Shown here piece by piece: positions 15,627-32,730 of a stretch of 64,000 nucleotides of DNA. The stretch covers positions 1 through 64,000 of the forward strand of contig JAGWWF010000010.1 in assembly GCA_018970445.1 (NCBI GenBank), in the 5' to 3' direction. Each line of letters begins with the position of its first letter. Position 1 is the stretch's first letter. The stretch is from Alphaproteobacteria bacterium. Lineage in GTDB: Bacteria; Pseudomonadota; Alphaproteobacteria; Sphingomonadales; Sphingomonadaceae. The notes beneath the pieces were generated by a model, which was given only the letters and a program-made list of their open reading frames with translations, was not told where the DNA came from and did no database searches. The position numbers and the translations under genes were made by a program.

Positions 15627-16616
15627 ATGAGCATGTTTCCGCACACCCGCCTGCGCCGCACCCGCATGACCGCCTGGAGCCGCGATCTGCACCGCGAAAC
15701 CAGCCTGAGCCCGGCCAATCTGATCTGGCCGCTGTTTCCCACCGAAGGCCATGACGAAGCCGTGCCGGTGGCCACCATGCCCGGCGTGTCGCGGTTGAGC
15801 GTCGATCGGCTGGCCAAGGCCGCCAAGGAGGCCGCAGCGCTGGGCATTCCCGCTGTCGCGCTGTTCCCGCACACCCTGCCGGAACGGCGCAGCGAGGATG
15901 CGAAGGAGGCACTGAACCCGGACAATCTGATCTGCCGCGCCATCCGCGCCATCAAGGATGCCGCGCCCGAAATCGGCGTGCTCACCGATGTGGCATTGGA
16001 TCTTTACACCAGCCACGGCCACGATGGGCTGCTCGGCGAGACGGGCGAAATCCTGAACGATGCCACGGTGGAGATGCTGGTGGGCCAGTCGCTGAACCAG
16101 GCCCGCGCCGGTTGCGACATCATCGCCCCATCCGACATGATGGATGGCCGTGTGGCCGCCATCCGCGAAGGGCTGGAAGGCGACGGCTTCCACAACACCC
16201 AGATCATGGCCTATTCGGCCAAATATGCCTCGGCCTTCTATGGCCCCTATCGCGATGCGGTGGGCAGCGGCGGCGTGCTGAAGGGCGACAAGAAAACCTA
16301 TCAGATGGACCCGGCCAACACCCGCGAGGCGCTGCGCGAAGTGGCAATGGACATTGAAGAAGGCGCCGATTCGGTGATGGTGAAGCCGGGCATGCCCTAT
16401 CTGGACATCATCGCACGGCTCCGTGATGCCTTTGATGTGCCGGTGTTCGCCTATCAGGTGAGCGGCGAATATGCGATGCTGGAAGCCGCCATCGCCGCCG
16501 GCGTGCTGGATCGCAGCAAGGGCGTGCTGGAAGCCTTGATGAGCTTCCGCCGCGCCGGCTGTTCGGGCGTGCTGACCTATCACGCGCCATTGGCGGCGCG
16601 CCTGATGGGGGCGTGA
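15627..16616 (+). CDS. hemB: Delta-aminolevulinic acid dehydratase (porphobilinogen synthase)
   Basis: HemB condenses two 5-aminolevulinate molecules to porphobilinogen in tetrapyrrole synthesis. The 329-residue protein has the two active-site lysines, Lys199 in YSAKYASAFYGP and Lys253 in VMVKPGMPYLDI. The metal site segment reads DVALDLYTSHGHDG, lacking the cysteines of zinc enzymes, so this is the magnesium/potassium-dependent type usual in alphaproteobacteria. The start at 15627 gives the canonical N-terminus; ATG at 15633 is also possible. The following gene is an AT-rich insertion beginning 29 bp after the hemB stop, so hemB may be co-transcribed with it and with argC. Confidence 0.96.
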   Translation: MSMFPHTRLRRTRMTAWSRDLHRETSLSPANLIWPLFPTEGHDEAVPVATMPGVSRLSVDRLAKAAKEAAALGIPAVALFPHTLPERRSEDAKEALNPDNLICRAIRAIKDAAPEIGVLTDVALDLYTSHGHDGLLGETGEILNDATVEMLVGQSLNQARAGCDIIAPSDMMDGRVAAIREGLEGDGFHNTQIMAYSAKYASAFYGPYRDAVGSGGVLKGDKKTYQMDPANTREALREVAMDIEEGADSVMVKPGMPYLDIIARLRDAFDVPVFAYQVSGEYAMLEAAIAAGVLDRSKGVLEALMSFRRAGCSGVLTYHAPLAARLMGA

Positions 16617-16645
16617 TGGCCAATTTCTAAGAAGGACACATTTCA

Positions 16646-17455
16646 ATGCCTCAAAAGCAGCCAACACCGAAGAAAAATTCTCCTGAAATCTCTTGGGAAG
16701 AGGCTATCAAGCAAGTTCTTTTAAAAAACAAAAAAGCTCTGAAATATACAGATATTGCTGAACAAATTTCAATGCATGGCTTGAAATCTGTTGCCAACCC
16801 GTCCGCTTCGGTTGCCATCGCGCTGAGCAAATCTATTTCATCAGGAAGTGGTCAATTCGTGAGACTCGGAGGAGGCCTGTACACGTTGACAGACGTGATT
16901 AAAATAAACGATCAACCACCAGAAAAAGACGACACAAGCCAACTACTAGATGATGACGCTGATACTGGTGCATTGAAGGCATTTGGCATGTATTGGCAGC
17001 GAGAAGCTGTAAATTGGGTTACAAAACCAAAACTCCTTGGTCGCCAAAGCGAAGGCGCAACGCCCGTAAACTTCAATGAACAGGTAGGTGTCTATCTTCT
17101 TCACGATAGAGACAGAGTTATTTACGTCGGAAGAGCAAACGATACTCTAGGTGCTCGCTTACTGGCTCACACGACCGACAGGTTAGGAGGTCGCTGGGAT
17201 AGATTTTCGTGGTTTGGCCTGAGAGCTGTCGATGATGGTGGGAAACTTGCTGCTCCATCAACTGCTTGGTCGCACGAAGTTGTGATTGAAACTTTGGAAG
17301 CGCTTCTTATTGAGACAATGGAGCCGCCACTGAACAGAAGGCGCGGCGACAACTTTGCTGCTGTTGAGTATCTCCAAGTTTCTGATCCGTCTATCGAAGA
17401 CAAGAGAACGCTGGCTCTTATAGAAGACCTCAAAAATAGAATGCTGAATAAATGA
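16646..17455 (+). CDS. HARE-HTH / GIY-YIG nuclease fusion protein
   Basis: This is a predicted DNA-targeting nuclease of 269 residues. Residues 16-83 form a HARE-HTH winged-helix domain (start SWEEAIKQVLLKNKKALKY, end FVRLGGGLYTL), a module found in restriction-type enzymes and eukaryotic chromatin proteins. A linker of acidic residues follows. Residues 147-232 look like a GIY-YIG domain: GVYLL at 148-152, IYVGRA at 159-164, Arg171, a helix with Glu219 and the terminal PPLNRR with Asn230. The gene is strikingly AT-rich beside its neighbours, with AAA, AAT and TTT codons, pointing to recent acquisition. AAGGA lies 9 nt before the ATG. Its stop overlaps the argC start by 4 nt. A role as modification-dependent restriction or other defence nuclease is inferred; no methyltransferase is adjacent. 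Confidence 0.78.
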   Translation: MPQKQPTPKKNSPEISWEEAIKQVLLKNKKALKYTDIAEQISMHGLKSVANPSASVAIALSKSISSGSGQFVRLGGGLYTLTDVIKINDQPPEKDDTSQLLDDDADTGALKAFGMYWQREAVNWVTKPKLLGRQSEGATPVNFNEQVGVYLLHDRDRVIYVGRANDTLGARLLAHTTDRLGGRWDRFSWFGLRAVDDGGKLAAPSTAWSHEVVIETLEALLIETMEPPLNRRRGDNFAAVEYLQVSDPSIEDKRTLALIEDLKNRMLNK

Positions 17456-18501
17456 TGCAGGCACAAGAGGATCGGCTTCGCATCGCGGTGTTGGGGGCTT
17501 CGGGCTATACCGGGGCCGATCTGGTGCGGCTGGCGCTGGCCCATCCGCGCATCGAAATCGCGGCGCTGGCCGCCAATGCCAGGGCCGGGCAGACGATGGC
17601 GCAGGTGTGGCCGCATTTTGCCATGTATCCGGGCCTGCCGGCGCTGGTACGGGCTGAAGAGATTGATTTTTCCGCCATCGATGCGGTGTTCGGTTGCCTG
17701 CCGCACGCCGCCTCGGCAGAACTGCTCTCGACCATCACCGGCCCGCGCATCATCGATCTTTCGGCGGATTACCGGCTGAAGGATGCCGCCACCTATGCGG
17801 CCTGGTATGGGGCCAAGCATCCGGCGCCGGCGCTGCTGCCGGATGCCGTCTATGGCCTGACCGAATTTGCCCGCGCGGCGCTGCCCGCCGCGCGCCTTGC
17901 CGCCTGCCCCGGCTGTTATCCCACCGCCGTGCTGCTGGCGCTGCTGCCGCTGGTGGCCGCCCACGCGGTGTCGGCCGACAATATCACCGTCAATGCGCTT
18001 TCGGGCGTGTCTGGCGCTGGCCGCAGCCTGAAGGAAGCGAACCTTTTTGGTGAAGTGGCGGAGGCCGTGCATCCCTATGGCATCGGCCACCATCGCCACA
18101 TGCCGGAAATGGAACAGGAATTGTCGCTGCGCGCCGGGCGGGCCGTGACGATCAGCTTCACGCCGCACCTGATCCCGATGAACCGCGGCGAGTTGGTGAC
18201 CTGCATCGTCGAAACGCCGCACGGCCCGGATTATTTGCGCGAAGTGCTGGCCGACAGATATGCCGACGAACCCTTTGTGCATCTGCTTCCCGCCGGCGTT
18301 GCCCCGGCCACGCGGATGGTGCGCGGTTCCAACCATGTCGTGATCAACGTGTTTGCCGATCGCATCCCCGGCCGCGCCATCGTGATTGCGGCCATCGACA
18401 ATCTGGTGAAGGGGTCCAGCGGCCAGGCCATCCAGAATTTCAACCTGATGTTCGGCCTGCCGGAAACCATGGGGCTGGAACAGGCCCCGCTGTTTCCGTG
18501 A
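17452..18501 (+). CDS. argC: N-acetyl-gamma-glutamyl-phosphate reductase
   Basis: ArgC reduces N-acetylglutamyl phosphate to the semialdehyde with NADPH in arginine biosynthesis. The 349-residue protein shows the NADPH-binding start IAVLGASGYTGADLVRL and the catalytic cysteine Cys155 in ACPGCYPTAVL. Further family segments are NALSGVSGAGRSL, HRHMPEMEQEL and the C-terminal QNFNLMFGLPET. It begins at the first of two adjacent ATGs, overlapping the stop of the foreign nuclease gene by 4 nt, so its translation is now coupled to that gene; ATG at 17455 is equally possible. It runs on by overlaps into a GNAT gene and a gamma-carbonic anhydrase gene. Other arg genes are not in the window. Confidence 0.96.
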   Translation: MMQAQEDRLRIAVLGASGYTGADLVRLALAHPRIEIAALAANARAGQTMAQVWPHFAMYPGLPALVRAEEIDFSAIDAVFGCLPHAASAELLSTITGPRIIDLSADYRLKDAATYAAWYGAKHPAPALLPDAVYGLTEFARAALPAARLAACPGCYPTAVLLALLPLVAAHAVSADNITVNALSGVSGAGRSLKEANLFGEVAEAVHPYGIGHHRHMPEMEQELSLRAGRAVTISFTPHLIPMNRGELVTCIVETPHGPDYLREVLADRYADEPFVHLLPAGVAPATRMVRGSNHVVINVFADRIPGRAIVIAAIDNLVKGSSGQAIQNFNLMFGLPETMGLEQAPLFP

Positions 18502-20053: not shown

Positions 20054-20130
20054 TGGTCGGAGCGACAGGATTCGAACCTGCGACCTCCAGACCCCCAGTC
20101 TGATGCGCTACCAGGCTGCGCTACGCTCCG
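20054..20130 (-). tRNA. tRNA-Pro (anticodon GGG)
   Basis: This is a 77-nt cloverleaf on the minus strand. The acceptor stem CGGAGCG pairs with CGCTCCG. The D-arm is AGCGCAGCCTGGTAGCGC. The anticodon stem TCAGA/TCTGG surrounds the loop CTGGGGG with anticodon GGG, and the T-arm contains GGTTCGAATCC. The discriminator is A and CCA is encoded. The gene is flanked by the holin and prsR genes. Confidence 0.95.
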
Positions 20131-31436: not shown

Positions 31437-31832
31437 TCAGGCGAAGGGATTGCGGATGGTCAGGCCGTTATCGACGACCATGCCGTCAGACAGATCTTCA
31501 CTGTAAAAGATTGTACAACCGGCCGATATGGCGGCAGCGAGCAGCATGGCATCATAGATAGGCAGTTGATAGCGCTCGGCGATGCGCATGCCCTCCAGAT
31601 GCACGGCCAGCGTGAGCGGCACCGGCACCTCATGCTGCGCGTGCAGCAGCATCAGCGCCTCGTTGAGCGCTGGCCAGGCCAGCTTGAATTTCCGGCGCAG
31701 GACGTTGGCAAACTCGTTCAAGCTTTGCACACCGATGCGATTGCCGGCACTGATGAGCTTGCCGGCACAGTCAGCCTTTGGGTCATCGCCAAAGGCATAG
31801 ATCAGTATATTGGTATCGATGAAGCCGTTCAC
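31437..31832 (-). CDS. vapC: PIN-domain toxin (VapC type)
   Basis: This is a predicted PIN-domain endoribonuclease toxin of 131 residues. Acidic metal-site residues are Asp6 in FIDTNILIYAF, Glu near NEFANVL, Asp in LPIYDAMLLAAAISAGC and Asp in FYSEDLSDG, the usual four-residue set. It overlaps the AbrB-type antitoxin gene by 4 nt (ATGA), the standard antitoxin-first arrangement. VapC relatives cut initiator tRNA or other RNAs when the antitoxin is lost. Codon use is less GC-rich than in the surrounding exporters, which fits a mobile module. A shared promoter lies upstream of vapB. Confidence 0.88.
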   Translation of the reverse strand: MNGFIDTNILIYAFGDDPKADCAGKLISAGNRIGVQSLNEFANVLRRKFKLAWPALNEALMLLHAQHEVPVPLTLAVHLEGMRIAERYQLPIYDAMLLAAAISAGCTIFYSEDLSDGMVVDNGLTIRNPFA

Positions 31833-32077
31833 AGCAACCTGTCAGCGCCGTTCATTTCCTCACGCGTCATCTTCCAGCTGCCATCGGCAGGCAGACGCAG
31901 GCCAACAGCCTTCATGCGCGCCACCAACTCCTCGGGGGTCAATCGACGGGCCAATTCGGCGCGGTGATCATCGAGCGCCCGAAGCTCCACCTCGTCGCCC
32001 TCCTTCAGGCCCAAGGCACGAGCGACGTCAACCGGGATACGAACGGCGAGGCTGTTGCCCCATTTGGAAATCTGCAT
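31829..32077 (-). CDS. vapB: AbrB/MazE-like antitoxin (VapB type)
   Basis: This 82-residue antitoxin has an N-terminal swapped-hairpin AbrB DNA-binding domain, MQISKWGNSLAVRIPVDVARALGLKEGDEVELR. It has a C-terminal tail that should wrap the PIN toxin (LTPEELVARMKAVGLRLPADGSWKMTREEMN). It precedes vapC with a 4-nt overlap and is expected to autorepress the operon. About 150 bp of AT-rich DNA upstream (32078-32226) holds the promoter; TATACAAT on the minus strand is a reasonable -10 element. No clear long palindrome was found there. Confidence 0.88.
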   Translation of the reverse strand: MQISKWGNSLAVRIPVDVARALGLKEGDEVELRALDDHRAELARRLTPEELVARMKAVGLRLPADGSWKMTREEMNGADRLL

Positions 32078-32226: not shown

Positions 32227-32730
32227 TCAGCCGATATCAACGCGAGCCAAACTGATCAATCTGTCCAAAAGTGGCTCCATAAGAAGCTCAGCTTCTCTTT
32301 CGAGAGCAAAGCGTTCTTCCAAGAGTTCGGCTTGGCGTTCGCTTCCCACATTCGATCGTTGACCTGCTTCAAATAGGCGCAAAATCCTGAAAAATATCGA
32401 ACAACATTTCGATATGTCAGTATGTACAGCTTCAGGGAAAATCAAACGAATATGTTGAGATATTCTATACAGTGACATCGTCTGGTCAAAATTAAGTCGG
32501 TTTGAGGCCGACCATGCGAACCAAAGCTCTTCAAATTCGACAATCAGCGATTTTCGGTCTTGCAGCAGATCGACCCGAATAGTCTGCAAAGCCAACTCGG
32601 TCTGTCGTTTCAATATCTTGGTTTGCCTGCTTGCTACCCAGGTTGCTGACGCAACGGCCACAAATCCGGTCGCAAGCGTTGCAATCGCTCCCCAGTCAAC
32701 TTCATACATGAAGTTAGGCGGCCAACTCAC
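32227..32730 (-). CDS. AT-rich hypothetical membrane-anchored coiled-coil protein
   Basis: This is a 167-residue protein of unknown function. An N-terminal membrane segment ([20 protein letters not shown]) is followed by a basic stretch and a helical cytoplasmic part ([24 protein letters not shown]). A long helical region rich in Leu, Glu and Arg ends it. The shape (TLATG...[11 protein letters not shown]) recurs in short proteins of accessory islands, but I know no assigned function. The GTG start overlaps the dxs stop as GTGA; ATG at 32709 is an alternative and would give 160 residues. Base composition is clearly AT-richer than in dxs, so it looks acquired, together with the adjacent vapBC. 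Confidence 0.6.

Follow-up and report, generated by a model that had tools for sequence, protein, structure and literature searches.

What does a lone AT-rich gene do between two housekeeping genes, and how did it come to lie there? The question is raised by a 269-aa ORF between hemB and argC on contig JAGWWF010000010.1, within a stretch of 64,000 nucleotides that was analyzed as a whole and is called the window here. A preliminary description, made from the sequence, read the product as a HARE-HTH domain joined to a GIY-YIG nuclease and put it forward as a candidate for an undescribed defense element. We have examined the insertion, the protein, its relatives and their genomic surroundings, and weigh the resulting explanations against each other.

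An AT-rich gene at the hemB/argC junction

The nuclease gene stands apart from its surroundings in base composition: its GC content is 45.4% (39% at third codon positions, GC3), against 65.7% (GC3 81%) for the hemB ORF and 65.6% (GC3 79%) for argC. Across 2107 sliding 810-bp segments (step 30), the lowest GC of the whole stretch falls on this gene, and segments clear of it have a mean GC of 66.0% (sd 3.9). The features of the locus are collected in Table 1.

Table 1. Coordinates of the features at the hemB/argC locus, as positions in the window
Feature	Position	Strand	Evidence and remarks
hemB (delta-aminolevulinic acid dehydratase)	15627..16616	+	ALAD PF00490, E 4e-133; start picked by eye from the N-termini of relatives; stop TGA 16614-16616 forms the left boundary of the empty site
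Remnant of the ancestral argC start	16616..16630	+	ATG GCC AAT TTC TAA, 4 codons; from sequence; relatives read TGATGG and then argC
Shine-Dalgarno-like purine-rich AAGAAGGA	16629..16636	+	Inside the insert, 9 nt 5' of the nuclease ATG; putative, read from sequence
HARE-HTH/GIY-YIG nuclease gene	16646..17455	+	269-aa ORF, ATG start
HARE-HTH winged-helix domain	16688..16894	+	About residues 15-83; PF05066 at 16-82; H1/H5-like fold
Flexible linker	16901..16960	+	About residues 86-105; pLDDT below 50 at 90-104
GIY-YIG nuclease domain (assigned by signature)	16961..17452	+	Residues 106-269: G148-V-Y150, Y160-V-G162, R171, H175, RWDRFSWFG 183-191, E218, N230
argC	17452..18501	+	Semialdhyde_dh families, best E 1.7e-54; starts at ATGATG overlapping the nuclease stop

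Comparison within the genus offers a view of the site without the gene. Both hemB and argC were matched in all 24 genus genomes examined, some of the matches being partial, and in 4 of the 23 other genomes (L117, L118, L120 and L122, belonging to G001, G011, G003 and G020, respectively) the two are joined directly via TGATG with nothing between them. In the other genomes of the genus they lie further apart or are not both on one stretch compared, so adjacency of hemB and argC is not universal in the genus. The window retains the TGATGG of the empty site and diverges from the relatives at 16620, within the remnant of the old argC start; after four codons follow TAA, AAGAAGGA and then the foreign gene, which puts the insertion only a few bases from the start codon that argC once used. 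Relative to the empty site of the four relatives, the gene is an insertion at the hemB/argC junction. At its other end, the nuclease TGA (17453-17455) and the argC ATG (17452-17454) overlap as ATGA. The preliminary description had set the gene between hemB and argC, far more AT-rich than both and with its stop overlapping the argC start as ATGA; the empty site in four relatives, the 45.4% against about 66% GC and the sequence of the overlap bear it out on these points.

No long direct repeat flanks the insert, the best being 8 nt long and within the gene. The one tRNA found, a tRNA-Pro at 20054, is not at the insertion, and Rfam gave no match there. When we looked for a promoter of the gene's own, the sole plus-strand site between 16300 and 17900 was a 9/12 match inside the gene at 16878, which is not decisive. 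Our literature search found no paper on insertion of a single gene into a housekeeping operon.

Two further AT-rich regions were seen. In another species of the genus (G015; L090/L121), an unrelated AT-rich ORF of 167 aa directly follows the hemB stop (L090, 442-942, plus strand); its first 450 bp have 37-49% GC, and it matched neither Pfam at E 0.001 nor PADLOC at E 1. It may be that foreign single genes insert repeatedly at the 3' end of hemB. Within the window, the most AT-rich segments after the nuclease gene (about 50% GC) start from about 31.8 kb. Judged by eye only, a PIN-domain toxin-like ORF (31437-31832) and an AbrB/MazE-like antitoxin ORF (31829-32077) overlap on the minus strand (31437-32077 together), and the AT-rich region also holds an unnamed 167-aa ORF at 32227-32730.

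Domain architecture of the protein

The predicted full-length model has a mean pLDDT of 87 and a pTM of 0.63 and consists of two domains joined by a disordered linker (residues 90-104). Foldseek found nothing in the PDB for it at E 0.001 or lower.

The N-terminal domain matches PF05066 (HARE-HTH) at residues 16-82 with E 1.6e-9 and 38.5 bits, above the cut-off of 25.9, and the same match is present in 68 of the 69 aligned family members (E up to 0.01). The Pfam name of this family contains 'restriction endonuclease HTH'; HARE is named after HB1 and ASXL. Residues 14-83 of the model superpose on the globular domains of histones H1/H5 (chains 9ipu_I, 5nl0_Z, 4qlc_U, 6la2_S and 1hst_A; VIA Z 9.9-10.3, rmsd 1.5-2.2 over 66-70 residues). 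The domain model also resembles DNA-binding Z-alpha winged helices. Among the fold matches is the RNA polymerase delta subunit (2m4k), a similar fold without modification reading.

The C-terminal half has a weaker profile match. PF20815 (GIY-YIG) aligns at residues 141-179 with E 0.0023 and 18.3 bits, under its cut-off of 22.4, and PF01541 is not listed for the window's protein at E up to 1; among the 69 members these two families match 8 and 3, respectively (E up to 0.01). The GIY...YIG, Arg, Glu, Asn signature is nonetheless present in order (G148-V-Y150, Y160-V-G162, R171, E218, N230), with variation at the I/V sites. In GIY-YIG nucleases the residues of this signature have a catalytic role. 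G148, Y160, G162, R171, H175, E218 and R231 are invariant in all 69 aligned rows and Y150 and N230 in 68 of them; the block RWDRFSWFG is likewise invariant in the aligned homologues. In a separate alignment of the nuclease domain (A3), 27 columns are invariant across 68 rows despite differing hosts and insertion sites.

Modelled alone, the C-terminal domain reaches a pLDDT of 90 and a pTM of 0.83. The first Foldseek row for it is the N-domain of UvrC (1yd6, probability 0.91, E 0.062). VIA gives low scores for UvrC (Z 3.9), T4 EndoII (3.6), Hpy188I (3.1) and Eco29kI (2.2), and the absence of a family from its lists is no evidence that the likeness is absent. Above UvrC stand the N-domain of a plant glutaredoxin (2lwf, Z 4.6, rmsd 9.6), which we take to be a GIY-YIG domain as well, and two RimK chains (4.3 and 4.2). 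When PDB sequences were searched with a profile, UvrC came up at E 0.2, together with two designed repeat proteins. Since fold comparison is weak by itself, the assignment rests on the residue signature: near-invariant in 69 relatives, it identifies the C-terminal half as a GIY-YIG nuclease domain that scores below the Pfam cut-off.

The domain order given in the preliminary description thus stands, its HARE-HTH at residues 16-83 through a profile match above cut-off and its GIY-YIG domain through the family-wide signature. The profile check it had proposed gave the first of the two domains, with PF20815 below cut-off and PF01541 absent. As for the residues it had named for mutation, Arg171 is invariant; residue 219 is an alanine, and the invariant glutamate is E218.

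Distribution and descent of the family

Scanning a collection of species genomes, we found at least 211 stretches encoding relatives; the number is a lower bound because exact peptide patterns were used. Of these, 80 loci were kept. Nine have no start codon at the match (L007, L008, L018, L022, L036, L039, L060, L062 and L079), and L033, L054 and L073 were also set aside, which leaves an alignment (A1) of 68 loci and the window, 69 rows in all; A3 comprises 67 loci and the window, L029 being left out. According to the records, the rows come from 17 named phyla, including Pseudomonadota and one archaeal record, with four rows bearing no phylum. Among the copies set aside from A1, L073 proved intact. 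Broken copies also occur: L033 has an internal stop, L054 a frame shift and L146 one TGA, consistent with gene turnover or with assembly errors.

At close range the gene is rare. With the window's protein as query, one of 118 related genomes matches, its own, and no other genome of the same genus does; the family profile matches 8 of the 397 genomes of the taxonomic family and 10 of the 398 of the phylum, its own among them, some of the matches covering only the nuclease part or fragments. The expectation that the gene is present in some strains only is borne out by these counts, and presence throughout the order with matched base composition is not what we find. Low GC is common in the protein family: compared with its flanks, the gene has less GC in 59 of the 68 loci of the alignment, by at least 5 points in 49.

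On the tree, the phylum label changes at least 30 times, against a least possible 16 and a mean of 34.7 after shuffling, and none of 200 shuffles was as low; the phyla therefore show some clustering together with some mixing. Actinomycetota fall together on one side of a branch. The window falls within a set of eight rows (support 99) that are Pseudomonadota where named and mostly alphaproteobacterial, so some of the family's history did not involve hopping between phyla. Among the pairs that join two phyla are L066 (Methanoperedens) with L076 (Bacteroidota), at support 100, and the well-supported L038 (Thermotoga) with L046 (Caldiserica). Single pairs of this kind are no proof, since a bin may contain stray contigs and since long branches come together at these points; joined long branches were flagged around L066, and the N-terminus of L011, on a long branch, is possibly misaligned.

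Genomic neighborhoods and mobile DNA

With heuristic gene calls reaching up to 5 kb on each side (many contigs were shorter), no neighbor cluster recurred in more than 4 of the 80 loci, and the nuclease therefore seems to work alone. The commonest Pfam families of the flanking ORFs are metabolic and not defensive, and no methyltransferase is among them (commonest 25 of 185 families, from 150 ORFs). Enrichment in defense islands was considered and rejected, since defense genes near family members are scattered: among 150 of the 151 flanking ORFs selected, 50 PADLOC families were matched at E 1e-10, and each of the best 25 of the 50 occurs in one member, in a survey confined to the flanks of family members. 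By our own reading, one cluster of three loci (L003, L044 and L072) has a type I modification methylase-like gene within 5 kb, and in L072 the nuclease gene begins 2 nt after an ORF that resembles a type I restriction subunit. In the window the neighbors are hemB and argC, in agreement with the earlier statement that the gene has no methyltransferase partner.

Tight packing is found elsewhere. In L001 the start of the gene overlaps the preceding gene, whose product has succinate dehydrogenase flavoprotein domains, by 4 nt, and in L004 the following VWA/CoxE gene starts in a 1-nt overlap with the nuclease gene. Operon-tight insertion as a rule of the family was considered and rejected, placement being tight in 5 of 64 loci upstream and 7 of 63 downstream.

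Carriage as phage or prophage cargo was also rejected: two exact peptide patterns, scanned against the 2.9 million contigs of IMG/VR, yielded one relative. Two phage records match the nuclease part only, and two plasmid records match, one of them across half of the protein. On the 8.9-kb plasmid pDMC2 of Solidesulfovibrio magneticus (L108, 2303-3055), a relative with 37% identity over 91% of the query is annotated merely as an HTH domain-containing protein. In two loci from the same family of genomes as the window (L154 and L155), the GIY-YIG part alone (query 110-237) lies near a large serine recombinase-like ORF, which suggests mobile-element carriage of the nuclease without HARE-HTH.

Methyltransferases of the carriers

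If the protein responds to modified DNA, the methylation of its hosts bears on what it could tolerate. In the window's own genome neither a C5 nor a D12 methyltransferase was matched, and there are four N6_N4_Mtase matches, one of which is presumably CcrM-like, judging by sequence; its DNA is thus probably marked with m6A or m4C. Carriers were surveyed at 50 of the 80 loci, selected on contig size whatever the completeness of the genomes, and were set against 14 well-known, unmatched control genomes. On this basis a C5 methyltransferase occurs in 22 of 49 carriers and 10 of 14 controls, and a D12 methyltransferase in 23 of 50 carriers (the window's own genome among those without) and 4 of 14 controls.

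Generic m5C or m6A is disfavored as a trigger because carriers often have C5 or D12 methyltransferases. A nuclease triggered by any m5C or m6A would attack many of its own hosts, which favors a narrower signal; the most plausible trigger would be either hypermodified cytosine in phage DNA or methylation confined to a narrow context.

Proposed function

A reader-like DNA-binding domain joined to a nuclease, the want of a recurrent partner and the patchy presence together resemble solo modification-dependent restriction enzymes. Our best explanation is accordingly that the gene is foreign, acquired horizontally, and encodes a single-gene, modification-dependent (type IV-like) restriction nuclease; we put the probability of this reading at roughly 0.6, with the activity itself being a prediction. 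The winged helix of the HARE-HTH would dock on duplex DNA and sense a non-self base modification, and the GIY-YIG domain, borne on its linker, would then cleave that DNA close by, using one metal ion (Y150/Y160, R171, H175 and E218). Host DNA without the mark would be spared; no methyltransferase partner would then be needed, and the gene could travel alone. An effect against phages carrying the mark would be expected. On landing at the hemB/argC junction, the gene may have inherited the translational coupling that the hemB-argC overlap used to provide, and its expression would be coupled likewise.

The same observations can be read otherwise. A selfish, free-standing homing-type endonuclease, cutting the empty hemB/argC junction and copied in by repair, would also appear as a single AT-rich gene, precisely inserted in an operon and patchily present. 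GIY-YIG is a common fold among homing nucleases, the overlaps of 4 nt in L001 and 1 nt in L004 repeat the tight placement, and the GIY-YIG-only L154 and L155 seem, by our own reading, to lie near a serine recombinase. However, homing predicts one shared site in related copies, and the neighborhoods share none beyond 4 of 80 loci; tight placement is the exception on either side; the junction is directly joined and lacks the gene in the four relatives of the genus; and the nuclease domain stays conserved although the sites differ. To our knowledge, moreover, HARE-HTH is not a homing specificity domain. We regard homing as unlikely.

A conventional sequence- or structure-specific nuclease for repair or branch resolution (UvrC- or Slx1-like), in which HARE-HTH merely adds DNA affinity, would fit with UvrC heading the Foldseek matches of the nuclease domain and with the resemblance of HARE to histone H1, a non-specific DNA binder. 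It is an improbable reading of a gene so patchily present, as the counts above for related genomes, the family and the phylum show, in which phyla are mixed on the tree and to which no repair genes are linked in the recurrent-neighbor test.

The nuclease might also restrict or abort infection independently of modification, staying inactive until triggered by, for example, phage proteins or DNA ends. Carriers tolerate common methylations, as this would allow, and the nuclease domain is weakly similar to the phage-defense candidate PDC-S14 of PADLOC (12 of 68 members for its commonest model; best E for any model 3.2e-5) and, in one member, to UzuA. The window's own protein matches neither PDC-S14 nor any other PADLOC family. 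Against such a mechanism speak the reader-like DNA-binding domain in 68 of 69 members and the lack of a recurrently linked partner or control gene, and we consider it very unlikely.

Modification-dependent restriction by a single protein therefore remains the reading we prefer for the window's gene. More tentatively, and at somewhat less than even odds, the relatives as a whole could be a widespread one-gene restriction family whose HARE-HTH reads phage base hypermodification, whose members travel by themselves among bacteria and into at least one archaeal record, and which can enter a housekeeping operon while keeping its overlap. If the restriction reading is right, type IV restriction gains a widespread single-gene family with no name in PADLOC as it was searched here, and the locus illustrates how such a gene can join an operon and leave its coupling intact.

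Comparison with known systems

In the accessible parts of the literature, fusions of HARE-HTH to nucleases are discussed for Dnd and BREX neighborhoods (PMC10853773, PMC12839542), where the domain is proposed to discriminate modified DNA (PMC10853773). The window's protein shares the joining of HARE-HTH to a nuclease with these fusions; they have the REase fold and belong to multi-gene systems, whereas it carries a predicted GIY-YIG domain and is solo. Views on the target of HARE-HTH differ: PMC11037411 mentions proposals for both adenine methylation and cytosine modification and, citing Aravind and Iyer 2012, holds HARE-HTH to be distinct from the DpnI-like winged helix by an extra helix and likelier to sense cytosine modification, while PMC8885841 lists it as a 6mA reader. 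With a compact 269-aa nuclease carrying its own HARE-HTH, this question of recognition becomes a cleavage assay, in which cutting would report directly on the mark that the domain reads.

For the nuclease half, UvrC, T4 EndoII, Hpy188I and Eco29kI share the GIY-YIG core fold with the model at the low VIA scores given above. The 'endonuclease II' of Synechococcus phage Yong-M2-251 has the same nuclease domain, with RWDRFSWFG and an E218-type glutamate (hhalign 99.7%, 36% identity), which further supports the GIY-YIG assignment. Unlike the window's protein, it is phage-borne, 164 aa long and without HARE-HTH, and E223 is not kept.

Closest in plan are Ahi29725I and Apa233I, type IV enzymes that likewise combine a winged helix (wH) and a GIY-YIG nuclease in one protein. 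As described in the accessible part of PMC11037411, they cut Dam-methylated DNA at a variable distance outside the site, Ahi29725I cutting Dam-methylated but not unmethylated lambda DNA, and methyltransferase genes are reported to be rare beside wH-GIY-YIG fusions; the gene studied here likewise has none next to it. Their reader is a DpnI-like winged helix sensing Gm6ATC, whereas that of the window's protein scores as HARE-HTH, a difference drawn by comparing descriptions (PMC11037411). By analogy of architecture, the m6A-dependent Ahi29725I is the nearest tested analogue.

The word 'undescribed' in the preliminary description thus holds in part. Our literature search, with subscription papers largely outside its reach, found no account of a HARE-HTH/GIY-YIG protein; the wH-GIY-YIG plan has been characterized (PMC11037411) and HARE-nuclease fusions have been discussed (PMC10853773, PMC12839542), as far as the accessible parts of these papers go. 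In plan, the HARE-HTH/GIY-YIG protein repeats the wH-GIY-YIG arrangement with another winged helix.
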